A stretch of DNA of 27,380 bases from the IMG/VR virus record IMGVR_UViG_3300042397_003267, positions 1 to 27,380 of that record. The stretch is one strand, 5' to 3'. Shown piece by piece: positions 821 to 21,744 of this stretch (position 1 is the first letter of the stretch; the number at the start of each line of letters is the position of its first letter). The stretch is from a virus. The notes under the pieces are model-generated. The model did not search any database. It was not told the DNA's origin and saw only the letters and a list, made by a program, of their open reading frames with translations. A program made the translations under genes and the position numbers.

Positions 821-1894
821 ATGAAAAAAATCAGGATTGGAGAACTTTTCTGCGGTCCCGGAGGTATTGCCATCGGTGCTGAGATTGCAAACGCCCGCTT
901 GAATCCTAGCATCGGCTTGAAGTTCAGCCATGCGTGGGCCGTTGATTACCACGAGGAGACGACCCGCACTTTCAAGCGAAACGTTACTGGTGCATCCGAC
1001 AAGTCGGTCCTCTGTGCAGATGTTACTCAGCTTGAGGTTGATACACTTTTCAAGATTTCTCCAATCGATGGGTTTGCCTATGGATTCCCATGCAATGACT
1101 TCAGCCTTGTTGGTCAACACAAGGGGATCAAGGGGCACTTCGGCCCTCTCTACTCCTACGGAATCCCAATTCTGGAGAAGTTCTCCCCTTTGTTTTTCAT
1201 CGCTGAGAATGTCGGTGGTATTCGCAGTGCCAATGAGGGAAAAACCTTTTCCAAAATCTATGAAGATCTCACGAATGCTGGAAAGGGGTACCAGATCACT
1301 TCGCATCTGTACAAATTCGAGGAGTACGGGGTACCCCAGTCACGTCATCGTGTAATCATGGTAGGCATCCGGAAAGACCTTGGCTTGGAATTCCTACCCC
1401 CAGCGCCCACGCATATCGGAAACTTCGTAAGTTGCTCAGAAGCGATTCTACATCCGCCTATTCCAAAAACGGCTCCCAATAACGACCTAACCAAACAACA
1501 CCCTCGTGTTGTTGAGCGACTCAAACACATTCGCCCAGGTGAAAATGCATGGACGGCAGATCTCCCTGAATATCTGAAAATTAATGTCGGGGGTGCTATG
1601 ATCAGCCAGATCTACAAGAGGCTGGATCCAAGGAAGCCAGCATACACCGTCACCGGATCGGGAGGTGGAGGAACGCATGTTTACCACTGGAAGGAGAACC
1701 GGGCACTAACCAATCGGGAGAGGGCTCGACTGCAAACATTCCCCGATCACTTTGTCTTTGAGGGTTCCAAGGAGTCCATCCGCCGCCAGATCGGAATGGC
1801 AGTTCCTCCCGAGGGTGCCAGCGTCATCTTTGAGGCAATCGCCAAAACCCTAACCGCCGAGCCTTATGACTCGATCCCTCCATCCCTCTACTAG
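821..1894 (+). CDS. DNA (cytosine-5) methyltransferase
   Basis: This 357-residue protein transfers a methyl group from SAM to carbon 5 of cytosine, presumably protecting DNA from the nuclease encoded next. The C5-MTase motifs occur in order: motif I at residues 9-15 (LFCGPGG), motif IV with the catalytic cysteine C91 in GFPCNDFS, motif VI ENV at 129-131, and motif VIII QSRHR at 163-167. The target-recognition region spans about 185-275. Motif IX/X follows with RERARLQTFPDHF (289-301) and IGMAVPP. Motif IV reads PCN where most family members have PCQ, which is an unusual substitution next to the catalytic cysteine. The start ATG follows a short A/T-rich leader with no clear Shine-Dalgarno. The gene overlaps the downstream nuclease gene by 29 bases if the latter starts at 1866. 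The recognition sequence cannot be read from the sequence. Confidence 0.93.
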   Translation: MKKIRIGELFCGPGGIAIGAEIANARLNPSIGLKFSHAWAVDYHEETTRTFKRNVTGASDKSVLCADVTQLEVDTLFKISPIDGFAYGFPCNDFSLVGQHKGIKGHFGPLYSYGIPILEKFSPLFFIAENVGGIRSANEGKTFSKIYEDLTNAGKGYQITSHLYKFEEYGVPQSRHRVIMVGIRKDLGLEFLPPAPTHIGNFVSCSEAILHPPIPKTAPNNDLTKQHPRVVERLKHIRPGENAWTADLPEYLKINVGGAMISQIYKRLDPRKPAYTVTGSGGGGTHVYHWKENRALTNRERARLQTFPDHFVFEGSKESIRRQIGMAVPPEGASVIFEAIAKTLTAEPYDSIPPSLY

Positions 1895-6915: not shown

Positions 6916-7872
6916 ATGTACAATACAACCGATTCCGTCCCACGTCAGGACATCAGCACCCTCCTCATGGAGGCTGTCCACCAGGATCAGCACTACATCG
7001 CGCAGAACGTCCTGCCAATCTACGGCAGCGAGCGCGAGGTGGGCCGCTATCCCAAGTTCCGCATCGGCAAGGGCGAACTCCTCAAGAAGGAGAGCCAGAA
7101 GCGCAACTCGACCGGCACCTACAACGAAAGCGACGAGAGCTTCGAGTGGGACAGCTACCAGACCGAGGAATATGGTCACGAGAAGCGTGTCGATGACAAG
7201 GTCTCCAAGCAGATGCGCGATTTCTTCGACGCACAGATGGTGACCGCCAAGTTCTGCATGAACAAGGTGATGTTGGATTACGAGGTCCAGGCCGCTTCCG
7301 CGATCATGGATCCCTCCACCTTCGCCAATGCCAACGGAACGGTGGCCTACACCGAGGCCAACCTCAACACCATCGATCTCCCGCAGGACATCAACGCCAC
7401 GCTCGAGAAGATGACACTCATCGGAGAGTCCCCGAACACGATGATCCTGTCCCTCCAGGTCTTCAACCGCCTCAAGAGGAGCAAGCTGCTTCAGACCTAC
7501 CTCTACGGCTTCCTCAACACCACGCAGGGCGGTGCCAACATCACCACCCAGACGATCTCGGCCGCCTTCGGCATCCCGAACATCGTCATCGCCAAGAAGT
7601 CCATCGACACCGCCATCAAGGGCAAGACCGCCGTGGCTCCTGTCTGGGGCAACGACTACATCTGGATCGGCGACGTCCAGGGTGGCGACTTCATGGCGGG
7701 TGGCGCAGGCCGCACCATCATCTGGGACGCGGACAGCGAGGGTGGTCTCTTCACCACCGATCAGTACCGCGACGAGGCTCGTCGTGGCGACAAGATCCGC
7801 GTGCGCTCCAACCGCACCGTCAAGATCATCAACCCCAACGCTGGATACCTCATCGGAACCCAGTGGGCCTAA
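6916..7872 (+). CDS. Major capsid protein
   Basis: This 318-residue protein would be the HK97-fold shell protein. Features seen: an N-terminal helix (QDISTLLMEAVHQ), a segment YIAQNVLPIYGSEREVGRYPKF (26-48), an E-loop-like charged stretch (50-85), a helix-rich spine region (95-135, with DYEVQAASAIMDPSTFA) and the P-domain/A-domain part from 150 to the end. The VLP...Y.K pattern near the N-terminus and the run ending NPNAGYLIGTQWA are typical of one large capsid family. The start ATG has GAGGAT 8 bases upstream. The gene follows the protease and decoration genes and is followed by a hairpin terminator. G+C content is the highest in the window, consistent with strong expression. Confidence 0.88.
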   Translation: MYNTTDSVPRQDISTLLMEAVHQDQHYIAQNVLPIYGSEREVGRYPKFRIGKGELLKKESQKRNSTGTYNESDESFEWDSYQTEEYGHEKRVDDKVSKQMRDFFDAQMVTAKFCMNKVMLDYEVQAASAIMDPSTFANANGTVAYTEANLNTIDLPQDINATLEKMTLIGESPNTMILSLQVFNRLKRSKLLQTYLYGFLNTTQGGANITTQTISAAFGIPNIVIAKKSIDTAIKGKTAVAPVWGNDYIWIGDVQGGDFMAGGAGRTIIWDADSEGGLFTTDQYRDEARRGDKIRVRSNRTVKIINPNAGYLIGTQWA

Positions 7873-7893
7873 AACCTTGTGTGAGGGCACATC

Positions 7894-7930
7894 AAACTCC
7901 CCGATCCGGCCAGTCCGGGTCGGGGAGTTT
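7894..7930 (+). terminator. Strong hairpin after the capsid gene, overlapping the kinase RBS
   Basis: AAACTCCCCGA (7894-7904) pairs perfectly with TCGGGGAGTTT (7920-7930) over 11 base pairs, with a 15-base loop and a T-rich run immediately after. This has the form of a rho-independent terminator. The right arm contains GGGGAG (7922-7927), which is the only Shine-Dalgarno for the kinase gene, so the folded RNA would also hide that site. Confidence 0.8.
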
Positions 7931-7934
7931 TCGT

Positions 7935-8483
7935 TTGGTGGCGCTGGCCGGATATGCCGGTAGCGGCAAAAGCGAGGCGGCTCGACATCTGGTCGAGCGC
8001 CATCATTTCGTGCGGCTGCGCTACGCCGCTCCCATGAAGCGGATGCTCATGACCCTCCTGGTGGAAAGCGGGATCGGTCCCATCACCGCGCTGGAAATGA
8101 TCGACGGGAAGCTGAAGGAAACGCCTTCCCCCGTCCTTTCCGGTCATTCCCCGCGCTTCGCCCTGCAAACCCTCGGTACAGAGTGGGGTCGCAACATCAT
8201 GGCTGCCGACTTCTGGCGGCGCATCCTCATGGGGCGCGTGGAAGCCGAGATCGCCAAGGGGAATTCCGTGGTCATTGATGATGTGCGTTTCTTCTGCGAG
8301 GCGCGTGAGCTTCGGGCCCGGGGATTCACGCTCTGGAGGATCCTGCGGCCCGGGGTCGAACGGGGGGAGCATTCCAGCGAGGATCAGTCGTTCCCCGTCG
8401 ATCATGTCATCCATAACGATCAGTCGCTTGCCCAACTCCATGCCAGCGTGGAGGAAAAGTTGACCTCCTCCCATGGAGTATGA
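7935..8483 (+). CDS. Phage deoxynucleoside monophosphate kinase-like P-loop protein
   Basis: This 182-residue protein probably phosphorylates dNMPs to dNDPs to feed phage DNA synthesis. From the chosen start, the P-loop GYAGSGKS lies at residues 6-13. It is followed by a helix and the RYAAPMKRML segment that many phage dNMP kinases share. Next come the central part LQTLGTEWGRN, the IDDVRF segment (Walker-B-like) and the C-terminal pattern HSSEDQSF...DHVIHNDQSLAQLHASVEE. The frame is open back to a GTG at 7863 inside the capsid gene. I place the start at TTG 7935 (or GTG 7938), because GGGGAG lies 7 bases before it and the domain begins there. The stop overlaps the next start (ATGA). A kinase among structural genes is unusual. 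Confidence 0.82.
   Translation: MVALAGYAGSGKSEAARHLVERHHFVRLRYAAPMKRMLMTLLVESGIGPITALEMIDGKLKETPSPVLSGHSPRFALQTLGTEWGRNIMAADFWRRILMGRVEAEIAKGNSVVIDDVRFFCEARELRARGFTLWRILRPGVERGEHSSEDQSFPVDHVIHNDQSLAQLHASVEEKLTSSHGV
8459..8465 (+). promoter_or_regulatory. GTTGACC variant of the start-site element
   Basis: GTTGACC lies inside the last codons of the kinase gene and ends 14 bases before ATG 8480. CTCC-CAT-GGAG between them can form a small hairpin. It differs by one base from the six exact copies. Confidence 0.35.
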
Positions 8484-8833: not shown

Positions 8834-9222
8834 TGAATGTCCGCTCCCTGATCGAAGTCGAAGTGGCCTCCGCCCTCTCCTCCAGCAAGGTCATTACCTG
8901 CCCAGCCCTGCCGGGGTCCGGCGACGGGGTCCGGCCGGATCGCTATGTCTCGGTCGTGGCCACGGAAGCCGAGCATCGGGGGGATGCTCATCTGGTGACC
9001 TTGGAATTCCGCATCGTGGCCCCTGCGGCCGAACCAATCGACTCCATGAGGGAGACGACGGACGCGGTCTATCTCTGGGCCACCGGAGAGGATTCGCCCC
9101 TCAAGGAATATGATGCCAACGGGCTTGAGATTTTCGGTCATTCACCAGCCAATCTCACAAGCGAGGTGCGCGATTTTCAGAGGGCCGAGATCCTGGAGTT
9201 CAAGGTGGGAGCCGCCGCCTAG
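8833..9222 (+). CDS. Tail terminator/minor tail protein candidate
   Basis: This 129-residue protein follows the connector with a TAATG overlap and precedes the tube genes, the slot of the lambda gpU/gpZ-type tail terminator. The N-terminal helix (NVRSLIEVEVASALSSSKV) is followed by beta segments (RYVSVVATEAEHRGDAHLVTLEFRIVAPA) and a helix with a conserved-looking AVYLWATG. The C-terminal half ends in RAEILEFKVGAAA. This helix-beta-helix pattern fits tail terminators, but no sequence motif confirms it. The stop TAG is immediately followed by TTGACA, part of a variant start-site element. Confidence 0.5.
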   Translation: MNVRSLIEVEVASALSSSKVITCPALPGSGDGVRPDRYVSVVATEAEHRGDAHLVTLEFRIVAPAAEPIDSMRETTDAVYLWATGEDSPLKEYDANGLEIFGHSPANLTSEVRDFQRAEILEFKVGAAA

Positions 9223-9228
9223 TTGACA
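9222..9228 (+). promoter_or_regulatory. GTTGACA variant of the start-site element
   Basis: GTTGACA begins with the last base of the preceding TAG stop and ends 18 bases before ATG 9247. GGGGGTAT lies between them. It has one base changed and a longer spacing than the exact copies. Confidence 0.35.
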
Positions 9229-9246
9229 TTCCGCCAAGGGGGTATC

Positions 9247-9591
9247 ATGAGCATCGCAAACAAATCAATCAACATGACCGGTTTTATTTTTGGAACCGGA
9301 GCCACAGACCTTCTTCAGGTTTCGGTTGAAAAATCCTACGCCACCCAGATCGAGATCGTCGGTGGCACGGGTATCCTCGATGACATCGTCTATGGGGCTG
9401 AGGAGCATAAAATCACCGCCACAAAGGTGAACGGCACCGGGGCCCTTCCTGCTCTTGGAACTAATTTCACCGCCGGTGGGGTAACTGGGTATGTCACCAA
9501 AACCTCCCTCGTTAAGAGTAACGAGGATGTGGAGAAAGTCCAAATCGAGGCCATCGGCTTCCCGGAAATTCCAACGACTGCCACTCCCTAA
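9247..9591 (+). CDS. Tail tube-like protein, first of a tandem pair
   Basis: This 114-residue protein starts MSIANKSINMTG. I prefer ATG 9247, because the TTG at 9223 is part of the GTTGACA element and AAGGGGG sits just before this ATG. It is beta-rich and Gly/Thr-rich with almost no charge clusters. Its C-terminal part (SNEDVEKVQIEAIGF) aligns by eye with SNQDFAKVTVTGKGI in the next protein. Two adjacent small beta proteins of this type, after a tail terminator and before a chaperone and tape measure gene, fit a tail tube protein plus a divergent copy. The second copy may cap or decorate the tube. Family not recognised. Confidence 0.5.
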   Translation: MSIANKSINMTGFIFGTGATDLLQVSVEKSYATQIEIVGGTGILDDIVYGAEEHKITATKVNGTGALPALGTNFTAGGVTGYVTKTSLVKSNEDVEKVQIEAIGFPEIPTTATP

Positions 9592-9627
9592 TAGGAGTGT
9601 TCACGGCAACTACTAACTCATAAAAAT

Positions 9628-9951
9628 ATGGCACTTCAATCATTCAAGGGGAAAGCAGTCGGAGCCTGCGGCGTGACGGTCGCTGGAATCACCAATGTCA
9701 CCAATTTCACCGATACTGAGGAATATGGCAATATTGCCCGTGCCAAGAACTGTGATGGTGACGTCAAGGCCGTCTTCATGTCCAAGGGCACTTACTCCTC
9801 ACAGGTGAGCGGTTATACCGCCACCATTGCCGCGCCTGCTCTCGGCGGGGCCATCACCGGTGTGGATGGATCCCAGCGGATCATGTCCTCAACGCTTGAG
9901 GCCTCCAACCAAGACTTCGCCAAGGTGACGGTCACCGGCAAGGGTATCTAA
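9628..9951 (+). CDS. Tail tube-like protein, second of a tandem pair
   Basis: This 107-residue protein, MALQSFKGKAVGACGVTVAG, is beta-rich with a central TEEYGNIARAKNCDGDVKAVF stretch and the ending SNQDFAKVTVTGKGI. The ending is similar to that of the gene just upstream. The N-terminal 'GxxxxxxGxTVAGITNVTNFTD' and 'EYGNIARAKNCDGD' segments are the kind seen in small tube proteins of siphophages. It lacks a Shine-Dalgarno: the leader is an A/T- and A/C-rich run (9605-9627) with an AGGAG about 30 bases away. It may be the main tube subunit because it is the copy next to the chaperone and tape measure genes, but that is inference. Confidence 0.55.
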   Translation: MALQSFKGKAVGACGVTVAGITNVTNFTDTEEYGNIARAKNCDGDVKAVFMSKGTYSSQVSGYTATIAAPALGGAITGVDGSQRIMSSTLEASNQDFAKVTVTGKGI

Positions 9952-9954
9952 TCC

Positions 9955-10758
9955 TTGTCGGATCACCACTACATCTTCGACGAGCGCTTTGCGGAGAGCT
10001 TCCTGCACTCCGCAAATCCTCATTCTGTCTTTGGTATAAGCCTCAAGCCCTTTTCCAACTGGCATCGGCTTCAGCTCGAATGGATTGATTCCAAGGTTCT
10101 CCTCGGCGGCGCTCAAAAGTGGGATCTCTATCTGGCGGCAAGAATCTGCTCGACCGAGTATCCTCATGTCGCTCCCAATCCGGGCAGGGGGAACCTTCAC
10201 AACTCCCTCTGGCATCTCCGCCATTGGCACCGGAATCCCAGCAAGGAATTAAAGGCCTTCTACGCCTACCTCGAGGATTTTTCGGCACCTCCCAAGCTCT
10301 GGGGAGGAAAGGGATCCTCCATGAAAAAGCTCTCCGAGGCTTACGAGGAACTTCACCGGATCACCGGAAATCCCTCCCACCTTCAAGGCGCGCGCGAGGC
10401 AGCCTATCAGGCATTCCTCCAGGAGAACCAAGACACGCAACTGGATGATACCCTCTCCCAGGTGGCCTATTACTGCAAGGCGACCGGCCGTCCGCCCCTC
10501 GAGGCCTGGAATATGCCGATCGGGGAACTCGCCTGGATGAATATCGCCTTTGCCAAGCTGGATGGCGGCAAGATCGACATCTGGACGCCGATGGATGAGG
10601 AACACTTCCAGGCGCATCTGCTCACCCGCCAGCAGAAGATCGCCGAGATCGCCAAGGAAATCGAACGGGATCAGCCCGAGGTCCCCTCTCGCCTCTCGAT
10701 GCCGTTGGCCGCCGTGAAGTATTGGCAGCAGGTCGTGGATCGCACCTCGAAGGGTTGA
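9955..10758 (+). CDS. Probable tail assembly chaperone (by position), unknown family
   Basis: This 267-residue protein lies between the tube genes and the tape measure gene, where siphophages encode tail assembly chaperones. It starts at TTG 9955 (SDHHYIFDERF...), since no ATG in frame precedes a conserved-looking part; AAGGGTAT lies upstream. It is mostly helical with many Trp residues (NSLWHLRHWHRNPSKEL, EAWNMPIGELAWMNIAFAKLDG). The C-terminal third (helix LLTRQQKIAEIAKEIERDQPE) looks solvent-exposed. I searched the last codons for an X XXY YYZ slippery site that would make a frameshifted longer form and saw none. The stop TGA overlaps the GTTGACG element of the tape measure gene. Confidence 0.5.
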   Translation: MSDHHYIFDERFAESFLHSANPHSVFGISLKPFSNWHRLQLEWIDSKVLLGGAQKWDLYLAARICSTEYPHVAPNPGRGNLHNSLWHLRHWHRNPSKELKAFYAYLEDFSAPPKLWGGKGSSMKKLSEAYEELHRITGNPSHLQGAREAAYQAFLQENQDTQLDDTLSQVAYYCKATGRPPLEAWNMPIGELAWMNIAFAKLDGGKIDIWTPMDEEHFQAHLLTRQQKIAEIAKEIERDQPEVPSRLSMPLAAVKYWQQVVDRTSKG

Positions 10759-10760
10759 CG
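10754..10760 (+). promoter_or_regulatory. GTTGACG start-site element, copy 3
   Basis: GTTGACG overlaps the stop codon of the chaperone-like gene (TGA at 10756-10758) and ends 15 bases before ATG 10776 of the tape measure gene. GGGGTATCAG lies between. Confidence 0.55.
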
Positions 10761-10775
10761 CTTTGGGGTATCAGT

Positions 10776-13700
10776 ATGGCCCAGCAGAGAAATATCAATC
10801 CCCCGTCCGCCGCGTGGACAACGTTCAAGGGGTTGGTGGGTGATGTGGTCGGACCCATGGCCGTCCTGGGGATCGCCGCCCAAAAAATCAGCTCCTCCAT
10901 CGCGCAAAGCGCCCTCAATGCCCAAAAGCTCAAGGAGGCCATCACCGCCTCAGCCGGTGCGGAAGCCCTTCGTAAGCAGTTCGAGGGGCTGGGGATGTCG
11001 GCCGCTCAGGCCAGTGTCAAGGTGGCCGAGCTTGCCAAGATCGCCGCGAGTGGCCCATTCGACCTACCCGCGCTTGGCATCGCCGCCAAAAACCTTCAAG
11101 TCGTCGGGGGTGCCGCACTCAATACGTCGGCCAATCTCCGCAAGGTCGCGGACATGGCCGCCGCCGCCGGAACTCCCATCGACACCATGGCGACGGCTTA
11201 CGCCAAGCTCATCACCTCCCTGAAGGGTGGTGGAGGCGCTGAGGCCGCCGCACAAATGGCTGAGTTGGGGGCGATTTCCGCCGAAACGGCCCAAAAGATC
11301 GCCACCTTAACGGCCACCGGCGGCTCTTTTTCCGAAAAAATGGCCCTCATCTCCTCCGACTTGAGCAACTCGGTGGGTGCCTCCAAGGCCCTCGAAGGGA
11401 CGCTTGGGGGACTCCAGGCCAAGCTTGCCGCTCTCCAATCGGCGAATTCCCTGGAGATCGGAGGCATGTTCCTAGAGGGGGAGAAGGCCGCTACCCGCGC
11501 GCAGATTGCCTTTGAAAAGCTCAGGGGGAGCATCGACAAGGCCTCGACCGCCAACTTTGCGGCTCTCTCGGAGGCATTCAATAAGATCAAAGAGGGGGTC
11601 GCCAACTTGCTTTCGAGCGGGAATGCGATTTCTGTCCTTGGGGGTATTTTTCAAACAGTTTTTGCCGTTGCAGCAGCCACCGTTTTGACAACGACAGGGG
11701 CCTTGGTAGCCCTAGCCGCAACTCTCGTGCGGATGGGGGCGGCGGCGTTCACGGCGGCCGGTGGGATGAATGCCCTCAACGCGGCATCGCGGGCATATAT
11801 TGGGCTGGGCGCTGGCACCCTGGCAGCCGTCACGGCCATTATCTCGGCGCTGATCCTGTTTGGAAGCCGCGCCTTGAAGACGGCCCAGGACCTCGATGTC
11901 CTCATTCAGAAAAACAAAGAATTGGCCGATGCGGGAAATGCCAGTTCCTCCAAGCTGGAAGCCAAGCTCCCCAAGGTCAGGGCAGGCACCGTCGAGGATC
12001 GGCAGGCCGCCATGGAGGAGGCTAATGCCGAAGTGGCCTCGGCTGAGGAGCGGGTCAGTAATGCCAAAAAGGCCCGGGCGGAGGAAGAGCGGAATGATAC
12101 GGGCTGGAACAGGGCCAAGACATTGGACTTTTTTGGCGTCTTCGCCAATCAGCGGAAAATCTTAGCCGAGGGTGAGGTGGGGTTGGCTGAAAACGATCTC
12201 CTGAGGAAAAAGAATGCCCGTTCTGAAATCGGATCGATGACGAGGCTCGGGCTCTCCAGGGAGGATCTCCAGAAACGATTCCAGCGCAATGACCTGATGG
12301 AGGATATCCGCAACTCGGCTTTTGACCGACTGCAGGCCTCGGCCGACCCCGAGTCTGCCGCTCGGATGGCCTCCGAGGAACTGAGCCGCGCCACGAAAAA
12401 AGATGATGCCAATCAGATCGCATCCAAGGCCTCCTTTGAAGAGCGCCAACGAATCAACGATGCGCGCGGCAAGGTCGCTACTGCCGATGGGGCGACAGCA
12501 AAAGACGCGGCCTTGACCGAGCTCGCCAGCCTTGCGACCACCACGGAGAGCGGCGGCCTCCAACAGCAGATCGACTACCGCAAGGCCCTTGTCATGGAGC
12601 AGGGCGATGTCAAAAGTGAAGGAGCCGCCGCGCAAAAGGAGCTTCAGGATCGGGTCAAAGAAAAAAATGAGGTCATTGGCAAGTATTCTGCAAGCGGGGT
12701 CACTTATGGAGAGGGGAAAGAAAAACTGGATGCGGCCAACGCGGCCGTCGCGGAGGCTCGAAAGAAGGCGGCTGACATCGAGGCGCGGAAACAGAATGTC
12801 GCCGCCCGATCCGGGGGCCTTGACCTCTCTGGTGAGGCTATTCAAGAACTGGAAATCCAGCGCGACGCCGCGCTCAAGAAGGAGGATCCCAATAAGTCCA
12901 CCGCAGAGAAGGAGGCTGCTCGGATCAAGGATCAGGCCGCAAAAGAAGCGGTGGCCGCCCAACGGCGTTCCATCGCGGCCTCGCGCGAGCGCGCCAATCT
13001 GGAATCCAATCTCGCCGGTCTCTCGGACACCGGTGCCAACGAGGAATACAAGATCCGCGCGGAGAGCGACCAACAGCGCGCCAACGACATGCGCGCCTTG
13101 GCGGCATCGCAAAATGTAGCCGCCAAAGAGAACGAATACTCGGCCGCCCGTGGCACTCCGCAGGAAGAGCAGAAGCGCCAGGAACTCGAGGCCGCACGCA
13201 CTCAGGCCGCCGAGGCGGGGGTCAATGGGCGAAGCACCGCCGAGATCCAAGCCCAACTCGACATCCAGAAACAAATCGTGGCCACCAAGCTCCAAGCCGC
13301 CAAGGTGGCTGAGGCCGGTGCCAAGGCCGAGTACGATGCCGCCATGAGGAGGCTCAATATCGAGCAACAAATCTCCCAACTGCGGGTCGCTCAGGCCAAA
13401 AGCAAGATGGATGGGTCGGAGTTCCAGGGGAAAACCGAGTCAAAAATCAAGATGGAGGCTTCAGAGAAGGAGCTTGCCGCCCAAGAGAAGGCCCTCAAAG
13501 CATCCCAAGCCCGCGATGCCGCCGAGGCCGCCTTCAAGGCGAATCCCAGCGAGGCAAATAAGAAGGCATTGGATGCCGCGAGCGAGGCCGCCGCCGCCGC
13601 TGGGGTTGGCAATCGGCGCACCCGTGATGTCGAGGGGGATGTGACGGCGGCAAAAAACGCTCTCGCTGATAGGAATTCCCAGCAGGCCGCCCTATTGGCC

Positions 13701-14123
13701 GAGACCCGTGATGACATGAAAATCCAATCACTGAGGGCCACCCAAAATTATGGGCCGGGATCACAGCGGGAGGCGGCCAAGAAGGAGGCCGATGCCCTGG
13801 AGGACAAGAAGGCCAAGGAAGCCCGTGTGGCTGAACTGGGTGCGGCAGGGATTACTGATACTGACACGGCAAACAAGATCGCCGACATCGAGGTTCAGCG
13901 CGCACGCATCACCAAGGACATCGAAGAGCAGGGGAATGTGCCCTCGAGTTCCATGGCCAGAATCGGTGGATCGGCTGGATTTGCCGGAATGGTGAACACG
14001 GATCAGGAAAAGAACAAGAGACTGGAGGAACTCAACCGGAAGCAAGCGGATCTCCTGGAGAAGATGGAGAGGCGCATGAACGATTCCTACAATCTGGCAG
14101 TGAGGCTTTCAGGAAACGACTAG
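10776..14123 (+). CDS. Tape measure protein
   Basis: This 1115-residue protein would set tail length and be ejected into the host envelope. Using about 0.15 nm per residue, as in lambda, the tail would be around 165 nm. Two hydrophobic stretches lie at about residues 286-318 (VFAVAAATVLTTTGALVALAATL) and 345-370 (GTLAAVTAIISALILFG). The remainder is Ala/Glu/Lys-rich predicted coiled coil. The last 380 residues contain three diverged repeats of about 120 residues (see the repeat entry). The start is ATG 10776; the frame is open further upstream to 10722, but that region belongs to the previous gene. The next gene begins one base after the stop. Size, membrane segments and coil content make the call secure, although no specific family was identified. 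Confidence 0.9.
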   Translation: MAQQRNINPPSAAWTTFKGLVGDVVGPMAVLGIAAQKISSSIAQSALNAQKLKEAITASAGAEALRKQFEGLGMSAAQASVKVAELAKIAASGPFDLPALGIAAKNLQVVGGAALNTSANLRKVADMAAAAGTPIDTMATAYAKLITSLKGGGGAEAAAQMAELGAISAETAQKIATLTATGGSFSEKMALISSDLSNSVGASKALEGTLGGLQAKLAALQSANSLEIGGMFLEGEKAATRAQIAFEKLRGSIDKASTANFAALSEAFNKIKEGVANLLSSGNAISVLGGIFQTVFAVAAATVLTTTGALVALAATLVRMGAAAFTAAGGMNALNAASRAYIGLGAGTLAAVTAIISALILFGSRALKTAQDLDVLIQKNKELADAGNASSSKLEAKLPKVRAGTVEDRQAAMEEANAEVASAEERVSNAKKARAEEERNDTGWNRAKTLDFFGVFANQRKILAEGEVGLAENDLLRKKNARSEIGSMTRLGLSREDLQKRFQRNDLMEDIRNSAFDRLQASADPESAARMASEELSRATKKDDANQIASKASFEERQRINDARGKVATADGATAKDAALTELASLATTTESGGLQQQIDYRKALVMEQGDVKSEGAAAQKELQDRVKEKNEVIGKYSASGVTYGEGKEKLDAANAAVAEARKKAADIEARKQNVAARSGGLDLSGEAIQELEIQRDAALKKEDPNKSTAEKEAARIKDQAAKEAVAAQRRSIAASRERANLESNLAGLSDTGANEEYKIRAESDQQRANDMRALAASQNVAAKENEYSAARGTPQEEQKRQELEAARTQAAEAGVNGRSTAEIQAQLDIQKQIVATKLQAAKVAEAGAKAEYDAAMRRLNIEQQISQLRVAQAKSKMDGSEFQGKTESKIKMEASEKELAAQEKALKASQARDAAEAAFKANPSEANKKALDAASEAAAAAGVGNRRTRDVEGDVTAAKNALADRNSQQAALLAETRDDMKIQSLRATQNYGPGSQREAAKKEADALEDKKAKEARVAELGAAGITDTDTANKIADIEVQRARITKDIEEQGNVPSSSMARIGGSAGFAGMVNTDQEKNKRLEELNRKQADLLEKMERRMNDSYNLAVRLSGND
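12990..13930 (+). repeat. Diverged ~120-residue repeats in the tape measure gene
   Basis: Three copies start near 12990 (NLESNLAGLSDTGANEEYKI), 13349 (RLNIEQQISQLRVAQAKSK) and 13716 (MKIQSLRATQNYGPGSQREA), 359 and 367 bases apart. Each contains a later A-A/G-G-V/I-x-x-R/D-S/T signature (AAEAGVNGRST, AAAAGVGNRRT, LGAAGITDTDT). The third is partial. An earlier, more diverged copy may start near 12554. Confidence 0.6.
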
Positions 14124-14124
14124 C

Positions 14125-14871
14125 ATGGAAACGTTCAACCCAGCCCAAGGGGGATACCTCAAGCAGTATGTGAGCGGCGATTCAAGAAAGCGGCTTATTC
14201 GGGAAACCGTGATCACAAGGATCTACCTAGCCAAAGAAAATCAGTTCCCAGCAATCGCCCGAGATATTCCCTGGCCCGTCTATGCCACCGGCCTCTCGGG
14301 GATCATGGCAACATACCGCGACGGCCTCTATCAGGTGGATTACACATTTAAGACCATTCCGAGCGCCCCTTCCTTTGGAAGCGAGGAGCCTATCGGCGGC
14401 CCCCAAGGTGAGACGTATGAGCTGGCTGGATCCCTCTCTCAGGAGCCCATCGTTTCCCATCCGAAAATCGGCGAGATGCTCAGCCTCTATGCCAAACCCG
14501 GTCGGGTTAAGGATGGGAAGGTCTTGTGGAAGGAGACCTTGGAAAAGGGAGGCATTAACGGGACCGACCTGGACGGCAATGCCATCACCAACGCCAATCC
14601 CTTTGCCAATGTCGACAGCTATCTGGAAGTGGGGGGTACCTTCAGCGCCTCCAAAACAACAAATTATCGAGGTTTGAACCTGAATTTGCCAGGCGTCGGC
14701 AAGATCGCCACCTCCTCCGTCATCGGAAGATTGCCCCCTGCGCCAAAGGGGGATGGAAGGAACTGGCTCTATGCCGGTTGCTCCATGCAACAGCGGGGCT
14801 ATGCCTACACCTACACAGTAAAATACCTACTCTCCGGCCCAGGGGGATGGAACCGCGATATCTACACATGA
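14125..14871 (+). CDS. Tail tip/baseplate protein, first of a tandem pair
   Basis: This 248-residue protein follows the tape measure gene by one base, the position of the distal tail (Dit-like) protein. It is beta-rich, without membrane segments. The middle holds ETYELAGSLSQEPIVSHPK, GRVKDGKVLWKE, a GTDLDGNAITNANPF loop and the ending LLSGPGGWNRDIYT. The same order of features occurs in the next protein (ETWGMSVTLNLQPISMHKK, GRLQDGEWIWPE, GTDKSGNTIYGVNPM, DFAPNGWNTFIYSP), so the two genes are paralogues. The last four bases overlap the next start (ATGA). Family not recognised; the role is by position. Confidence 0.6.
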   Translation: METFNPAQGGYLKQYVSGDSRKRLIRETVITRIYLAKENQFPAIARDIPWPVYATGLSGIMATYRDGLYQVDYTFKTIPSAPSFGSEEPIGGPQGETYELAGSLSQEPIVSHPKIGEMLSLYAKPGRVKDGKVLWKETLEKGGINGTDLDGNAITNANPFANVDSYLEVGGTFSASKTTNYRGLNLNLPGVGKIATSSVIGRLPPAPKGDGRNWLYAGCSMQQRGYAYTYTVKYLLSGPGGWNRDIYT

Positions 14872-15638
14872 GTATTCAACCAACACAGATTGGATCCCTT
14901 CCGCTAGGGCGCCTCCACTCCGTCTCCTACGAGCCTGGGAAATGGTCATGCACGGTGGTCAGGGATGGATTCCAGGGGCTATTCAACGAAAACGAAGTGA
15001 AGTTGCCCGACGTTTCTCAATTCGGATGGGTGTTGGTGAGGAGTGAATTGCAGGATGAGGGGGAGGGGGCGTCAGTCCGCTATGACACCTATGAGAGCGG
15101 ATCTTCCATCATCTCCGGCGGCGGTGATGATCGCGGCGAGGCCGCCCAAGAAACATGGGGTATGTCGGTCACGCTCAATCTGCAGCCGATCTCGATGCAT
15201 AAAAAAATGAGCTATCTCAAAAATACCTACAAGGGGCGGCTTCAGGATGGCGAATGGATCTGGCCGGAATACGATCCGACCGGAACAAGCAGCAGGAGCG
15301 GCACGGATAAGTCCGGAAACACCATCTACGGAGTCAATCCCATGTATGGCGTGCAGGAGTTTTTAAGCCCGACGTGCACCCTTACCAGGACGAAGGTAGT
15401 GCAGGGGGCCTACCTGTCGCTGGGTGCCGGATTGGGCAATGTGGAGGATCCTCCTTCCTCCGCGCCATTGCAGCTTCCGAGTGGCACGGGTGGATCGGGG
15501 GCCGCCGAGTACCGGTATTGGCTCAAGACGGCGGATACCGTTTCCATGCATGGCGCTGATCACGAGATTACCGAGTCGTGGGATTTTGCTCCCAACGGCT
15601 GGAATACCTTCATCTATTCCCCCAAATCCAAGGCATGA
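14868..15638 (+). CDS. Tail tip/baseplate protein, second of a tandem pair
   Basis: This 256-residue protein starts at ATG 14868 in an ATGA overlap with the previous gene. The frame is open further upstream, but that part is shadow sequence of the previous gene. It is a diverged duplicate of the preceding protein: both share the GR.xDGxxxW motif, a GTD..GN.I..NP loop, and a C-terminal GWN..IY. A Gly/Ser-rich insertion (SGSSIISGGGDDRGEAA) sits around residues 78-94. A second insertion, APLQLPSGTGGSGAAEYRY, precedes the C-terminal part. A baseplate or hub structural role is likely. Its stop overlaps the next start by four bases (ATGA). Confidence 0.6.
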   Translation: MSIQPTQIGSLPLGRLHSVSYEPGKWSCTVVRDGFQGLFNENEVKLPDVSQFGWVLVRSELQDEGEGASVRYDTYESGSSIISGGGDDRGEAAQETWGMSVTLNLQPISMHKKMSYLKNTYKGRLQDGEWIWPEYDPTGTSSRSGTDKSGNTIYGVNPMYGVQEFLSPTCTLTRTKVVQGAYLSLGAGLGNVEDPPSSAPLQLPSGTGGSGAAEYRYWLKTADTVSMHGADHEITESWDFAPNGWNTFIYSPKSKA

Positions 15639-16123
15639 TCGTCCTAGCCGTCAAAAAAAAGAAGTCGGTTCCGCTTGTCCGGCCGGACTCCATGCGCACT
15701 CCGCGCCGGTCCTTTCGGGGGGCCTTTTATGTGGAAGGATACCTCGATCGGAATGTCTTGAAGGTAAGGGTCGGGCGCGGGTTCGTGAACGGGATCGAGC
15801 CGATGATCGCCGACAAAAAGATCTCCGATGAGGGGGCGATCTTCGAATATCCCATCTCCTTCGATGCCTACGATCGCGCTTATATCGGGGTCAGCATCAA
15901 CTTGAAGCCCGACGGATCAATGGTGGCCACCAAGCAGGAGAACGCTGAAAACAACCTGACCATCAGTTTGCAGGGGAACATCCTTTCACCCGCCAACACG
16001 CACTTTCACCCGATTGCCATCTGGCACAAACAATATGGCCTCCACCAGGTTGCCTACCACGACCTCCTTCATATCTCCATCAAGCAGTTTGGCAAACCCC
16101 GCAGCCTCATCTTTGCCTCATGA
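15635..16123 (+). CDS. Baseplate/tail tip protein with GFVNGIEP motif
   Basis: This 162-residue protein starts at ATG 15635, overlapping the previous stop. A basic N-terminus (VKKKKSVPLVRPDSMRTPRRSFRG) is followed by FYVEGYLDRNVLKVRVGRGFVNGIEP (residues 32-57), then beta segments ending in HFHPIAIWHKQYGLHQVAYHDLLHISI. The segment 'V..GFVNGI(E/D)P' recurs in the next protein, suggesting a shared domain. I recognise no family; the position among overlapping tail genes supports a virion role. The His-rich segment near residues 130-150 could bind metal, but there is no proof. Its last four bases overlap the next start. Confidence 0.55.
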   Translation: MIVLAVKKKKSVPLVRPDSMRTPRRSFRGAFYVEGYLDRNVLKVRVGRGFVNGIEPMIADKKISDEGAIFEYPISFDAYDRAYIGVSINLKPDGSMVATKQENAENNLTISLQGNILSPANTHFHPIAIWHKQYGLHQVAYHDLLHISIKQFGKPRSLIFAS

Positions 16124-17169
16124 TTATCCTCATCTTCCGACGGGATAAAGAAACGCTGAAAAAGCCGCCTGTAAAGACGCCGTCGGCCACCACGGGCCAT
16201 GCTTGGGAGACAGGGGTTTCATTCAGGGACGGGGCATGGCATTTCTCGGTCGCGCCGGGGTTCGTCAATGGCATTGATCCCAGGGTTCCTCGCGCCGAGG
16301 AGGCCGCCCGCAAGGCCGCCAAGCAGGGAACCGCCCAGGCCATCAATCCTCGATACAGCCGAATAGGGGGCCTGATCGAGGGAGCTGAAATCGGCCTGCT
16401 TGAACAACCCGAGATCAAAATCGAGGATGGTGATGTGCGCGATCCGCGCGCGCCTTATGTGACGCAGGATGGAGCTGTGAAATCTGAAGTCATCCCCCCG
16501 TTTTTCTACGCCATGGGGCTCAAAAAGCCCAAATCCACCCCCGACGTCAATGTGAACAACTTCGACTCATTCCAGATCAATCTGGATGACATGAATGCCG
16601 AAGAGGGGCCGAATATTGTCAAATGCGACATCTGGCTCGCCATGGCGCGCGCCACCACCAAGCTCAGCGTCGACCTTCCGGCCAACTTGGTCACGGGCCA
16701 GCTTGTCGATTACAGCGTGGGGTACGACACGACCAACCTGGCCTCCAAGGGCAGCCGCGCCCGGCTATTATTCGGGCCTCGCCTGCCGGAGGATCCTCCA
16801 CCCTCCACCTTTGAGGATCGCTTGGCGGGGGCTTTTGGGGACATTGGGGAGGATCGAATCCCTGTCGCCACCATCTACTGGCTCTCGCCGGTCACAGGGG
16901 GGAAGTCATTTACTGAAGAGGAGGATGGCATCCCCAAGTGGACGCCGTTCATCAAGCACAACCTCTTTTACAACCTCTGCTACAAGCAAAAGAATCTCGT
17001 GCCACGAAACATCACCAATCCTGGTCTCGATCTCTTCACGGCATGGTTTGTAGGGCGCTACACTTTTGCGGGGGCCGCCACCGTCGGGGCCATCGAGGCA
17101 GAGCAGGACCGGATCCTCTCCGCGCTCTGGAACGACACCGACGGGAGAGGGGACTTCTGGACAGCATGA
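16120..17169 (+). CDS. Baseplate/tail tip protein, longer GFVNGIDP paralogue
   Basis: This 349-residue protein starts at ATG 16120 within the ATGA overlap. Its N-terminal 60 residues (SFRDGAWHFSVAPGFVNGIDPRVP) repeat the beta segment and GFVNGI motif of the preceding protein. A helical, Ala/Lys-rich linker (AEEAARKAAKQGTAQA) follows, then a larger domain from about 100 with NNFDSFQINLDDMNAEEGPN, GYDTTNLASKGSRARLLFGPR and a C-terminal region ending DILSALWNDTDGRGDFWTA-like. There are no membrane segments. It is probably a central baseplate or hub subunit by position. No enzymatic motif is visible. Its stop overlaps the next small gene. Confidence 0.55.
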   Translation: MIILIFRRDKETLKKPPVKTPSATTGHAWETGVSFRDGAWHFSVAPGFVNGIDPRVPRAEEAARKAAKQGTAQAINPRYSRIGGLIEGAEIGLLEQPEIKIEDGDVRDPRAPYVTQDGAVKSEVIPPFFYAMGLKKPKSTPDVNVNNFDSFQINLDDMNAEEGPNIVKCDIWLAMARATTKLSVDLPANLVTGQLVDYSVGYDTTNLASKGSRARLLFGPRLPEDPPPSTFEDRLAGAFGDIGEDRIPVATIYWLSPVTGGKSFTEEEDGIPKWTPFIKHNLFYNLCYKQKNLVPRNITNPGLDLFTAWFVGRYTFAGAATVGAIEAEQDRILSALWNDTDGRGDFWTA

Positions 17170-17366
17170 GCACCGCAGACCAATACGGGGCGAACAAAGC
17201 CGCCCGAGCGCGGGCCCGTATTGCGGAGGAGGTGGCGACCGCCGCCGTCCCATTGCTTGAACCGCTGTTCCCCTACACGGTTGTGGCTCCACCAATCCAA
17301 TACTTCAGGCAATTCGTCAAAAATGATGATCCTCCCACCGATGATTTGCCGCCGATGGGGTGGTAG
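17166..17366 (+). CDS. Small tail-region protein, unknown
   Basis: This 66-residue protein starts at ATG 17166, overlapping the previous stop (ATGA), and ends at TAG 17364-17366, directly followed by TTGACG. The first half is an Ala/Arg-rich helix (ADQYGANKAARARARIAEEVATAAVPLL). The second half is Pro-rich and aromatic (PLFPYTVVAPPIQYFRQF) and ends DDLPPMGW. The frame is also open upstream through the previous gene, but that part is a shadow. It is short, but the coupling on one side and the element on the other support it as a real gene. A role as linker or chaperone for the following fibre is possible but not shown. Confidence 0.5.
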   Translation: MSTADQYGANKAARARARIAEEVATAAVPLLEPLFPYTVVAPPIQYFRQFVKNDDPPTDDLPPMGW

Positions 17367-17372
17367 TTGACG
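17366..17372 (+). promoter_or_regulatory. GTTGACG start-site element, copy 4
   Basis: GTTGACG begins with the last base of a TAG stop and ends 15 bases before ATG 17388. GACC-GAATA-GGTC between them can form a small hairpin that touches the start codon. Confidence 0.55.
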
Positions 17373-17387
17373 CCGACCGAATAGGTC

Positions 17388-19997
17388 ATGCCATCCCCAT
17401 CGGTTATTTACTGCGATTTGATGAACGGGAAGGCTGCGGCCACCGCAGGCGGAACCTCAATGACATGGCCCTCCTTCGTGGCCGGAGGGAACGTGGCCTA
17501 TGCCCTGAGATTCCTGGAAAGCGACGCGGCCCTCGGATTCCTTGAAAAGGACCAGCTTGTGGCATCCCTCAGGGTGGCCCTGGGATACAAACAGCAATAT
17601 CCCTCCTCCGGACGCTTCAAGATCAGGGTGGGAAACCAATCCAGTGCCTTTCTGGATTACGCCTGCGGCGCACGCGAAATCAAGGCGGCCTTGGATCCTC
17701 TTTCCCCCAGCGATCCGTTTATCGTGGAGTCTGTCGGCAAATCCTTCCTGATCCGCAAGCAATCCGGCGGGGCCGTCACGCTCTCCGCCGCGTCCAATAC
17801 TCTGTATCCATTCTGCTTTGTGGCCTTTGAAGGCTCCCTCATCGACTCGTCATGGGTTTATAGGATGGTGTTCAGAATCGCTCCGCTTGCCTTCACCGAC
17901 CTGCCCTACCAATCCCTCCCCGATTCCCCTTCCTCGACCGTCATTCAACACGGAGGAGCCGATGCAGGGGGAACTGTTGTTTGGAACACCATCCAAAAGC
18001 TCTACATCCCTCCAACCTTTCGCGGCACGTTCCAACTTCAAAGGGGATTGGCTCGCACAGACCTCCTCGACATCACCGATGGGGCCGCTCAGGTGGAGTT
18101 GGCCCTGAACACCATTCTGGCCGGTGAAAAGGATGCGTTTGGCAAGGTAGCCAGAGTCTCGGTCACCAACCCGACCTCCTTTGTCCTCCATATCGAATTC
18201 ATGGGTTCCCTGTCCGGATTCGATGTTCCCGCCCTAGGGGTCAATGTCTATTCGGCGCCTCCCGGGGATTGGGGGTTCAATCTCAATCTCGACACTCCGG
18301 AGCTCCGAAGCGCGCTGGCCGACACACAGAGTCTGCAGCTCCAATTCGAGGCGGAGGCCGATTTCTACACCTCCAGGCCGATTCAAGGTCAGCCGCTTCC
18401 ACCCAGGGTGCGTAGGAAGCTCTGGAGCGATACCGTCACCGTCACGCGGCCCCTGATCTTTAGCGAGTTCTCCACCACGGGGATGATCGACTGGCTAAGG
18501 CCGCCCTCGGGTAGGGATTACATTCCCTTCACCGCCGATCAGGTCATCACGGGCCAGCAGAATTACACCGCTGTCATCGGCGACGGCGCGGCCACTACGT
18601 TCGCCATCCCTCATCACCTGAACTCGGATGATCTGGCGGCGGTCTCCGTCAGGCAGAATCGCGCAGGGGGCAAGCTGCTTTCTCCCTCTTCCTACGAGGT
18701 GACAATCCTCGACTCGGGCTCGGTCGAATTGGAGTTCACCACGCCTCCCTTGCCCAATTCGCTTGTCGTCACGATCCTCGCGGCGGGACCCAAAAGCGCC
18801 TTTGAGACTCATACGCACACGATCCAGCAGATCGTGACCTTGGATGACACCCTCACAAGGATCAGCGAGCGCCTTGCCTACATCGAGTCGCTGATCCCGA
18901 AGTCCACTACCATCGTGAGTGTCTCCACCAACATGCCGGATCAGAAAAACGTCCTGCCACCCTTTGGCGAACTCCTTCCCGATCTCTCGCTGGAAAACAC
19001 AACCGTCTCCATCGCCTCCCAGATTGTCTCGGCAACTCCGGCCTCCGGTGGGGCCACCCCGCCTCCGGTCGTCATCCCTGGAACCGATCTGCAAGAGCAG
19101 AACCAGAAGGCCGCCGCCGAATTGGCAAAAATCAACGCTCAGATCGAGGCTGCCAAGCAAGCCGCCATCGATGCCGCCACCGCCGCCAAGGATCAGGCCC
19201 TCAAGACCGCCACTGTGGCCGCAAAACAAGACTCCACCGTGCTTACCACGCTCTCCATTCCCTTTATCGGAACCACTGCAGCGCCACAGATATGGCCCAT
19301 CACCCGTGCGGGGTCGAAGCCGCCTCGTCTCCCGCGCGCCATGCAGGGAACTCCCGTCAATACCGCATCCCTGCCGACTGCAGCGGGGGTCTACAGGGCC
19401 ACCACCCCACTCACGCTTCCTCCTGCACCAGGCCGCAAAACGGCAACCGTTCCCGTCAATGGGGTCTTCGCTTCCGATGGTGCGATCTACTATCGGGCCA
19501 ATCAATGGAAAACGGGAGGATGGTATGCGACCGATATGGATCGGGAGCTTTACCGGACGCTGATTTCTGAAAGCTCCTTCCCAACCGGATCCACCCTCTC
19601 TGCCTCCCTTGAAACCAACACCTCCCTGATCACTTCAGGATTTGACGCGCTTGGGGTCTCCTACGGATGCGAATATATCCTTCAATTCCTGGCGATTCCG
19701 CTCGCCTCCCAGAATCCTGGCGTGGGGGCCGCCGCTTCTCCTGCGGTTATCCTGGAGACGCCGCTCTCCTTCTCCATGGCTTCCGAAAAGCGCCAGTTCA
19801 CCATCACCATGAAGCGCAACGGATCCAAATCCTCCGCCACCATCTACGGGGCCTCGGTCGAGGGGGATCCGGTTCCTCAAGGGGATTTCACCCTCGCGGT
19901 AAGGCTGACCGCATTCGACATCGACGACTCATCGGAAACTCCTTCCGGTAAGGTATCGCTCTGGATGCCGGCCTCCCAAATCACCATCACCCGCTGA
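17388..19997 (+). CDS. Long tail fibre protein
   Basis: This 869-residue protein is built of stalk-like modules. Residues 1-170 begin with a beta domain (FVAGGNVAYALRFLESDAA...) that may be an attachment module like those of 21025 and 24974. Residues 395-475 (VIGDGAATTFAIPHHLNSDD..., ending LVVTILAAG) match a domain common in phage fibres. THTHTIQQIVTLDDTLTRIS then leads into a trimeric coiled-coil segment (474-505). A Pro/Gly linker and an Ala-rich helix (573-616) follow. The C-terminal 230 residues are paralogous to the next protein. The start is the ATG 15 bases after GTTGACG. The gene probably encodes the structural fibre that carries other receptor-binding proteins; its receptor is unknown. 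Confidence 0.75.
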   Translation: MPSPSVIYCDLMNGKAAATAGGTSMTWPSFVAGGNVAYALRFLESDAALGFLEKDQLVASLRVALGYKQQYPSSGRFKIRVGNQSSAFLDYACGAREIKAALDPLSPSDPFIVESVGKSFLIRKQSGGAVTLSAASNTLYPFCFVAFEGSLIDSSWVYRMVFRIAPLAFTDLPYQSLPDSPSSTVIQHGGADAGGTVVWNTIQKLYIPPTFRGTFQLQRGLARTDLLDITDGAAQVELALNTILAGEKDAFGKVARVSVTNPTSFVLHIEFMGSLSGFDVPALGVNVYSAPPGDWGFNLNLDTPELRSALADTQSLQLQFEAEADFYTSRPIQGQPLPPRVRRKLWSDTVTVTRPLIFSEFSTTGMIDWLRPPSGRDYIPFTADQVITGQQNYTAVIGDGAATTFAIPHHLNSDDLAAVSVRQNRAGGKLLSPSSYEVTILDSGSVELEFTTPPLPNSLVVTILAAGPKSAFETHTHTIQQIVTLDDTLTRISERLAYIESLIPKSTTIVSVSTNMPDQKNVLPPFGELLPDLSLENTTVSIASQIVSATPASGGATPPPVVIPGTDLQEQNQKAAAELAKINAQIEAAKQAAIDAATAAKDQALKTATVAAKQDSTVLTTLSIPFIGTTAAPQIWPITRAGSKPPRLPRAMQGTPVNTASLPTAAGVYRATTPLTLPPAPGRKTATVPVNGVFASDGAIYYRANQWKTGGWYATDMDRELYRTLISESSFPTGSTLSASLETNTSLITSGFDALGVSYGCEYILQFLAIPLASQNPGVGAAASPAVILETPLSFSMASEKRQFTITMKRNGSKSSATIYGASVEGDPVPQGDFTLAVRLTAFDIDDSSETPSGKVSLWMPASQITITR

Positions 19998-20001
19998 CGC
20001 C

Positions 20002-21000
20002 ATGCTTATCTCCACGCTCGATAAAATTGACCAGCTTCCGCAACCGGCCCTCGGCCTGCTTGGGGCGATCCATACGGCCACCGTCACCAACCTGAGCGGG
20101 GTGCTGATCAACGGGGCTTTCCCCAGCCCTGCCTCCACGAAGGGCCAGGTTTTCCTCAATAATCTGACCACTCCAATCTCCATTCCGGCGGGTGGCAACT
20201 ACCCATCAAGGGCGCTGAATCAAGGGGATCATGTCGCCTCAAACGGCACGCTCTACTACAAGGTCGTCAATAAGCGGTCGATCACCCGCCAGATTCTTTC
20301 GGTGGCCAATGGGGTCTTCACCACGGCCATGGGATCTCCTCTTCTTCAAGACGGGCTTGTGGTCACCCCTCAGGGGTTTTCATCGCCAAGCGGGTTCTCC
20401 AACGGGACTGACTACGCCATCTCCTATTCGGGGGGCAATACGTTTCGCCTGCGCGGCCCAGGAACTACCACTCTACCCGCCTCGGCCTCCGTCGCAGGGT
20501 GGATCCATTCCAAGAAAACCAACTCATTTTACCCTGCCGCCTTTGAAAGGACGGCCTATTCGGTCTCCTTCACTCCTCAGTCCCTGGCCATCGGCTCGCC
20601 CTTCACGCTGAGCAAGACCTTCACATTCCGCGCCATCGGTGCGGCCACGGCGGCGGTTTATTCTGTTCTCTTTGAGTTCGGGGTGAGGCGCAACACCACC
20701 TCCCCCGCTCCTGTGGGCAGTAACATCGCCGGGTATGAATTCCTGCCGCCTGCCGTTGAGCAGGAAGTCGTGCTGACCGATGTGACTTCCAGCCATACTC
20801 TCGGAATCCAGTTCGTCAAAACTCCTTCCGGCATGGAGGGCCAACGCTACCTTTATTCCAAGAGCCTGGCGCTGATCCCGGGGACATACCCGGTGGATAC
20901 CGAAGATTTCATCCTGCGGATCAGAATCGGCCAGTTCGACATCGAAGATGATACCGACACCCAGGGGTATGTCGGATATCTCATCAAGGATCCTGCGTAA
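20002..21000 (+). CDS. Fibre-associated protein, paralogue of the long fibre C-terminus
   Basis: This 332-residue beta-rich protein begins four bases after the fibre stop. VASNGTLYYKVVN around residue 80 corresponds to FASDGAIYYRANQW in the long fibre. FILRIRIGQFDIEDDTDTQGYVGYLI near its end corresponds to FTLAVRLTAFDIDDSSETPSGKVSLWM. Between these, a middle segment (about 95-160) is new. Apparently the C-terminal module of the fibre was duplicated and a fresh module inserted. No cysteine clusters, membrane segments or enzyme motifs are visible. It is likely a fibre tip or an alternative adhesin assembled on the long fibre. Confidence 0.6.
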   Translation: MLISTLDKIDQLPQPALGLLGAIHTATVTNLSGVLINGAFPSPASTKGQVFLNNLTTPISIPAGGNYPSRALNQGDHVASNGTLYYKVVNKRSITRQILSVANGVFTTAMGSPLLQDGLVVTPQGFSSPSGFSNGTDYAISYSGGNTFRLRGPGTTTLPASASVAGWIHSKKTNSFYPAAFERTAYSVSFTPQSLAIGSPFTLSKTFTFRAIGAATAAVYSVLFEFGVRRNTTSPAPVGSNIAGYEFLPPAVEQEVVLTDVTSSHTLGIQFVKTPSGMEGQRYLYSKSLALIPGTYPVDTEDFILRIRIGQFDIEDDTDTQGYVGYLIKDPA

Positions 21001-21002
21001 TC

Positions 21003-21009
21003 GTTGACG
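21003..21009 (+). promoter_or_regulatory. GTTGACG start-site element, copy 5
   Basis: GTTGACG lies three bases after the previous TAA (20998-21000) and ends 15 bases before ATG 21025. GGAGGGGATGGG lies between, giving a fair Shine-Dalgarno. An ATG at 21019 is in frame too. Confidence 0.55.
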
Positions 21010-21024
21010 GCGGAGGGGATGGGT

Positions 21025-21744
21025 ATGCCTGTTCCTGTCATTTCCTCCACGCAGAGCGTCCTGTCTGTTGCTCAATGGCAGGATTTCTCATTTAACGCCG
21101 CCGCCACAGGCAACCCTACAGAGTGGTCAATCTCCCCCGTCGCTCCGGCGGGAATGACATTTTCTCCCGCAACGGGGGTTATCAGCGGCCCTCCGACAAT
21201 TCCAGGGGTTTTCAATTTCACACTTCGGGCCAAAAATTCCGATGGTTGGAGCGATCCCAAGGAGTTCACCTTGGCGTGTTATTACTCGGATGGGGATCAC
21301 TCAAAATTCCAACTCAACATCGATGTGGATATTGATACGCGGATTGTCAGCGGTTGGCCGCCCGACTTTTCCGCCAAGTACGGCGATGACCTTGTGTTGA
21401 GGGTTTCCTTCAAAGAGGGAAGTTCCGTTCTCAATCTGGACTTCAATTCACTCAAGTTCGGGCTCAAGGAACGGGATGGCGACCCTCTCATTCTCAACTC
21501 CCAATCCTGGAGAAAGGTATCCACCGGAATCACCGGAACGACATTCTTTCTGCTCTACATTCCCGTCACGGGGCCGGTGCTGGCTGGCATCCTTGCTGAT
21601 TATGAACAGGATGCAGGAACCTTTTTCACGGGTATTGCAGAGATCGAATGGATCGAGCGGAATGCCAGGAACACGGTCGGGCCGGACTATGTGAGGCTCA
21701 CCTCGCGGACCTTCCCGTTCCGCATAACCAGGGATCTCATCTAA
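21025..21744 (+). CDS. Virion protein with putative Ig (He_PIG-like) domain and attachment-like C-terminus
   Basis: This 239-residue protein has two parts. Residues 5-85 (with WSISPVAPAGMTFSPATGV, ISGPPTIPGVFNFTLRAKNSDG) are a clear putative-Ig domain of the type found in cell-surface and phage adhesins. Residues about 105-239 (DDLVLRVSFKEGSSVLNLDF, LNSQSWRKVSTGITGTTFF, AEIEWIERN) resemble the N-terminal domain of the spike protein at 24974, including LSNSWVKTGIGT and MEIEWVVGSYRY, so the two share a module. That module resembles baseplate-attachment domains (BppU-type) in layout. ATG 21025 is chosen over 21019 because the element-to-start spacing is then 15, as for the other copies. It is probably a connector between the tail and the adhesins that follow. 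Confidence 0.65.
   Translation: MPVPVISSTQSVLSVAQWQDFSFNAAATGNPTEWSISPVAPAGMTFSPATGVISGPPTIPGVFNFTLRAKNSDGWSDPKEFTLACYYSDGDHSKFQLNIDVDIDTRIVSGWPPDFSAKYGDDLVLRVSFKEGSSVLNLDFNSLKFGLKERDGDPLILNSQSWRKVSTGITGTTFFLLYIPVTGPVLAGILADYEQDAGTFFTGIAEIEWIERNARNTVGPDYVRLTSRTFPFRITRDLI

Follow-up and report, generated by a model that had tools for sequence, protein, structure and literature searches.

The tail module in the virus record analysed here over its whole length of 27,380 bases (hereafter the window) raises the question of whether a phage tail can be built from neighbouring pairs of duplicated genes, and of what the second copies would contribute to it. A common origin by duplication of a single building block is assumed for the rings of tube, neck, baseplate and hub, but the copies have usually diverged too far to be recognized by sequence. 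All genes named in a preliminary description of the window are open reading frames at the positions it gave them (Table 1). The window encodes a major capsid protein (PHROG 1005, E 2e-37), and from position 8480 the gene order runs head closure, terminator-like gene, A, B, the gene at 9955, tape measure, C and D, with E, F, a small open reading frame, G, H, an Ig-domain protein (from 21004) and fibres following D. A good ribosome-binding site precedes the ATG of A at 9247, and C, D, E and F are linked by 4-base ATGA overlaps (C/D, D/E and E/F). The TTG start of the gene at 9955-10758 is shared by the window, L002, L003 and L006, and is thus a conserved rare start codon. Given a tape measure of considerable length (about 1115 aa) and no match to a tail-sheath gene in the PHROG and Pfam scans of the window, the phage probably has a siphophage-like tail.

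Table 1. Genes of the tail module, with the evidence on which each description is based.
Feature	Position	Strand	Evidence
A: putative small tail-tube-type protein, 114 aa, first of A/B	9247..9591	+	B paralogue by profiles; lies between terminator-like gene and tape measure
B: putative small tail-tube-type protein, 107 aa, second of A/B	9628..9951	+	AlphaFold model best matches tail-tube chains
Conserved 267-aa protein, TTG start, in the place of a tail assembly chaperone (from position)	9955..10758	+	conserved in relatives
Putative tape measure protein	10776..14123	+	length, helical composition, position
C: first of C/D, 248 aa	14125..14871	+	blastp and hhalign to D
D: second of C/D, 256 aa; residues 85-247 a predicted tube/hub-type domain	14868..15638	+	AlphaFold, VIA
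E: first of E/F, 162 aa, putative tip protein, fold unassigned	15635..16123	+	hhalign to F
F: second of E/F, 349 aa, insertions relative to E	16120..17169	+	profiles
Small conserved open reading frame, 66 aa, between F and G	17166..17366	+	counterpart in L009
G: 869-aa putative tip/hub protein; C-terminal part (about aa 660-869) is the H partner	17388..19997	+	hhalign
H: 332 aa, apparent free-standing copy of the G C-terminal domain with an added insert	20002..21000	+	profiles, tree

The relatives used for comparison were IMG/VR contigs together with one contig of a Verrucomicrobiaceae MAG (L009) and one of another genome of that phylum (L018), and since relatives sit in these two genomes the host is probably a member of the Verrucomicrobiota, the phages of which have been little studied. 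Across 387 genomes of the phylum, an F relative turned up in just one further genome. Among 50,697 phage records, neither positions 9000-21500 (megablast) nor D, F and G (tblastn) found a match, and the capsid protein alone picked up distant relatives. A deoxynucleotide monophosphate kinase gene (Pfam DNMK, 7863-8483) lies between the capsid and head-closure genes. Near the record end (821-3467), the gene for a C5 cytosine methylase (Pfam E 2e-63) precedes that for an unnamed protein of 533 aa, perhaps a restriction endonuclease, the two being a possible restriction-modification pair.

Pairwise blastp among the window proteins aligned C with D (30% over 161 aa, E 2e-12), the G C-terminus with H (24% over 156 aa, E 0.007) and E with F (29% over the first 58 aa, E 0.016), while the A/B match (39% over 41 aa, E 0.13) was not significant. 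As C/D is the sole pair that such a plain search makes secure, relatives were gathered and families built iteratively, with each profile drawn from a single class to keep sequences of the partner out of it. Across all genomes, A and B do not fall into two clean clades, and because classes defined by gene order could therefore mix A with B, the test was redone inside the 14-genome clade of the window, with reversed sequences and about 3,040 other open reading frames as controls. Profiles of A found B in 14/14 cases (best 2e-9; best other open reading frame 2.3), those of C found D in 11/11 (best 3e-33), those of E found F in 13/13 (best 2.5e-4; best other 2.4) and those of the G C-terminus found H in 13/13 (best 3e-23). 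All four pairs were recovered in both directions, above the other open reading frames and the reversed sequences.

Profile-profile comparison led to the same pairs. An earlier hhalign run on 3-sequence alignments, which gave 97.5, 78, 39 and 26%, was repeated with 14 genomes since those alignments were too shallow. The deeper profiles joined A to B at 97.8% (E 8e-13, about 96 columns), C to D at 99.9% (E 1e-34, about 184 columns), E to F at 95.8% (E 8e-9, 72 N-terminal columns) and the G C-terminus to H at 99.7% (E 1e-25, 209 columns), whereas the 24 non-pair combinations in the all-against-all comparison of the eight classes reached 1.1% or less. The motifs on which the preliminary description had based its four duplicated neighbouring pairs fall in homologous columns, and all four pairs are borne out. 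Despite the weak plain pairwise E-values of A/B, E/F and G/H, the chance that the motifs are accidental or convergent β-strand patterns in unrelated genes is negligible, given how the partner classes rank above all controls and how far the pairs stand above the non-pairs; for C/D and G/H the profile controls had already refuted it.

At the level of sequence, then, A/B, C/D, E/F and G-C-terminus/H are shown to be paralogous pairs, chance being excluded as the source of similarity over the aligned regions because the pairs score so far above the controls. For E/F the strong similarity is confined to about the first 70 residues. An iterated profile also puts the C-terminal ends together and would support homology over the whole length, but as hhalign spans about 72 columns we claim homology for the N-terminal part alone, and regard it as less certain beyond. 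The G/H match joins a domain to a gene, not whole gene to whole gene.

Two further similarities were missed by the preliminary description. Within G, aa 55-160 and 195-300 form an internal repeat; profiles of its two parts cross-match in 22 of 25 phages, in the best cases above other open reading frames and mostly with weak E-values. The C-terminal part of the protein at 21004-21744 resembles the N-terminus of that at 24974-26635 (blastp E 0.005), and the domain common to both, perhaps a fibre-anchoring domain, recurs downstream in many relatives; by sequence, these two genes are likely a fifth pair.

The pairs differ in their distribution among related phages. C/D-type genes were present as one copy in 13/28 contigs, as two in 12/28 and as three in 3/28, several of these contigs being near-duplicates of each other, so that the counts do not equal independent events. 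In the tree, C proteins cluster in one clade (100/99), separate from D and from the single copies, which in turn group apart from D; where a phage has three copies, the second and third (T2/T3) are a further split of D. As this tree has no outgroup, the single-copy phages may either have lost a copy or never had one. The C/D pair of L042, on long branches, appears to stem from a duplication of its own. The tree splits E from F at 100/100, and both are present even in L018, with two or three E/F-type genes among the relatives and an extra E in four phages. The H proteins group in one clade (100/100); 16 phages have the gene, and seven with contigs that run on past G lack it. A/B are two genes in 25 contigs and one in L033 and L034, with one at the contig end in L009.

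Because the four duplications differ in this way, they point to stepwise accretion and not to one block event, and on sequence evidence the best reading is that the tail proteins multiplied by stepwise tandem duplication. The pairwise duplication that the preliminary description called regular is real for all four pairs, but 'regular' is too strong a word, since their distribution differs among relatives and one of them is a copied C-terminal domain.

Several features of individual lineages were observed alongside. In the lineage of the window, H carries an insert (about aa 95-170) of at least some 75 aa that has no counterpart in the H of L009. In L006, the genes after D (15536-17683; 190 and 522 aa) were unmatched by E or F profiles, and a replaced tip module is possible. 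The tape measure is 473-907 aa long in single-C/D phages versus 706-1266 aa in the C/D-duplicated clade and 510 aa in L042, with its separate duplication; length and copy number are here confounded by descent.

Searches of A-H against PHROGs and Pfam gave nothing beyond short weak matches, the same scan finding a He_PIG match in the protein at 21004. The 45 C/D and 47 A/B family members gave stray PHROG and Pfam hits of one or two members only, E/F members had no Pfam match, and a PDB sequence search with the four family profiles returned nothing meaningful, i.e. no solved relative by sequence.

The AlphaFold model of B is of low confidence (pLDDT 64), and its top Foldseek match is the tail tube protein of R4C (E 8.7e-4, prob 1.00, for this pLDDT 64 model). 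Almost all other chains in its Foldseek list are from tail tubes, necks and baseplates, and VIA gives the same picture. The model has no helix of four or more residues (DSSP), whereas the tube-type β-sandwich has a flanking helix and a long loop. In the window and its relatives, A/B lie where a tail tube protein is expected, between the head-tail joining genes and the chaperone/tape measure genes. The low-confidence predicted fold of B suggests that A/B are tail-tube-domain proteins.

The model of D is confident (pLDDT 88.4) and has an extra N-terminal β domain (residues 9-81). Residues 85-247, the part most clearly shared with C, matched chains of XM1, Pam3, E217, Mu gp44, 80alpha, the T1 tip and the R4C tube in VIA with Z values of 4-5.4, a range that VIA calls middling. 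Some unrelated chains of RNA polymerase reached comparable values, and these rows, like those of trigger factor and others with a similar Z, were treated as chance. By Foldseek alone, the model had no PDB match at E 0.001, and its strong BFVD matches were uncharacterized proteins of uncultured phages. As for Dit proteins, defined by an N-terminal ring domain and a second domain such as OB, an 80alpha baseplate chain is among the VIA rows and one weak BFVD hit is named Dit-like (E 0.034); Pfam and PHROG gave no match. The model is thus suggestive of a tube/hub-type fold in the C-terminal two thirds of D.

We think it rather probable that this phage has duplicated tube-type subunits both in the tube (A/B) and just below it (C/D), together with duplicated tip proteins. 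One of A and B would be the major tube subunit and the other a specialized or additional type of ring, and C and D would form successive rings that continue the tube below its last ring, each extra C/D copy adding or specializing one layer. E/F and G/H would be duplicated tip proteins, with H derived from the G C-terminal domain as a gene of its own. The whole would work as in the T5 tip, where rings that share a single fold but vary in decoration are stacked from the tube down to the hub. The idea of the preliminary description that the duplicates form ring or hub layers is plausible in that two of the pairs have tube/hub-type predicted folds; the pseudo-symmetric rings that it suggested are a possible arrangement, and the variation in copy number fits stacked extra rings at least as well.

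Alternatively, the members of a pair could co-assemble into mixed rings (A3B3, C3D3) of pseudo-sixfold symmetry. These would correspond to the fused T5 tube protein but be encoded by two genes, and would also bridge the sixfold tube and the threefold tip. The tube/hub-type predicted folds, the adjacency of the pairs with translational overlap of C and D, the maintenance of A/B as two genes in 25 contigs, and the pseudo-hexamers of T5 and HFTV1 (PMC5717097, PMC12494034) would all agree with such rings. However, C/D-type genes number one, two or three and A/B is single in L033 and L034, so that no fixed two-subunit ring is required. We therefore favour added layers over fixed mixed rings, on account of the varying C/D copy number, and consider the latter unlikely.

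It is also conceivable, if quite unlikely, that the duplicates have subfunctionalized, one member remaining axial while the other decorates the outside of the tail as a collar, receptor-binding or decoration protein. F and H carry large insertions compared with their partners, D has its additional β domain, and outer rings exist on other phage tips (e.g. T5 p132; PMC10038345). C and D could be collar or side proteins instead of axial rings. Yet these two are similar in length and align over about 184 columns, which argues for a similar placement of both.

When the same blastp pair search was applied to tail modules, that of the window contained three pairs, whereas lambda, HK97, JBD30, T1 and P8625, a small sample, had none apart from one 29-residue match (E 0.04), which supports the pattern being unusual at the sequence level. 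To call it unusual for a siphophage tail, as the preliminary description did, is an overstatement, since duplication of the tube block is a known principle (PMC10038345; PMC5717097; PMC12494034); what is unusual is the number of side-by-side pairs with variable copy number.

T5, with its duplicated tube block, is the closest working model for the window's tail. Its tube-domain rings run on through the tip, where p140 represents a second copy of pb6, the tube protein (PMC10038345), and pb6 is itself an internal duplication, duplication being stated as a principle of tail evolution (PMC5717097). The duplicates of T5 are either far diverged (9% identity between p140 and pb6) or fused, whereas the four pairs described here are separate, neighbouring, detectable by profiles and of varying copy number among relatives.

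The closest solved small tube proteins to the B model are those of vB_DshS-R4C and RcGTA (8gtb and 6tba; 130 aa), but in the window a tandem of genes encodes proteins of this type, 107 and 114 aa long, with no match to the solved ones at the sequence level. No clear case of a tail with two separate tube-protein genes forming one tube was found in the open-access literature; the two major tail proteins of SPP1 come from one gene by frameshift (PMC8718954). The siphophage JBD30 (Casadabanvirus) shares the order major tail protein, chaperone, tape measure and several tip genes, and its distal tail protein has two tube-like domains (PMC11445458). In contrast to the window, it has no sequence-detectable pairs of tail genes, its duplicated domains being fused in one protein. 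Similarly, the BTC ring between tube and hub of the archaeal tailed virus HFTV1 arose from gene duplication and fusion (PMC12494034), and is a fused, single ring where the window has unfused tandem genes. P8625 is a long-tailed phage of Verrucomicrobia (PMC4642752), but no class profile found a convincing relative among its proteins.

Neither PHROG nor Pfam has a name for families A/B and C/D, nor has Pfam one for E/F, and related phages carry one, two or three copies of the same gene. It is therefore feasible to locate on a tree where a tail layer was gained, and to test such a gain structurally. In its boldest form, which we hold to be decidedly improbable, the tail would combine an A/B mixed-ring tube with a modular stack of C, D, E, F and H, whole layers being gained and lost between related phages by tandem duplication; if this were true, the number of tail-tip layers would itself be an evolving trait.
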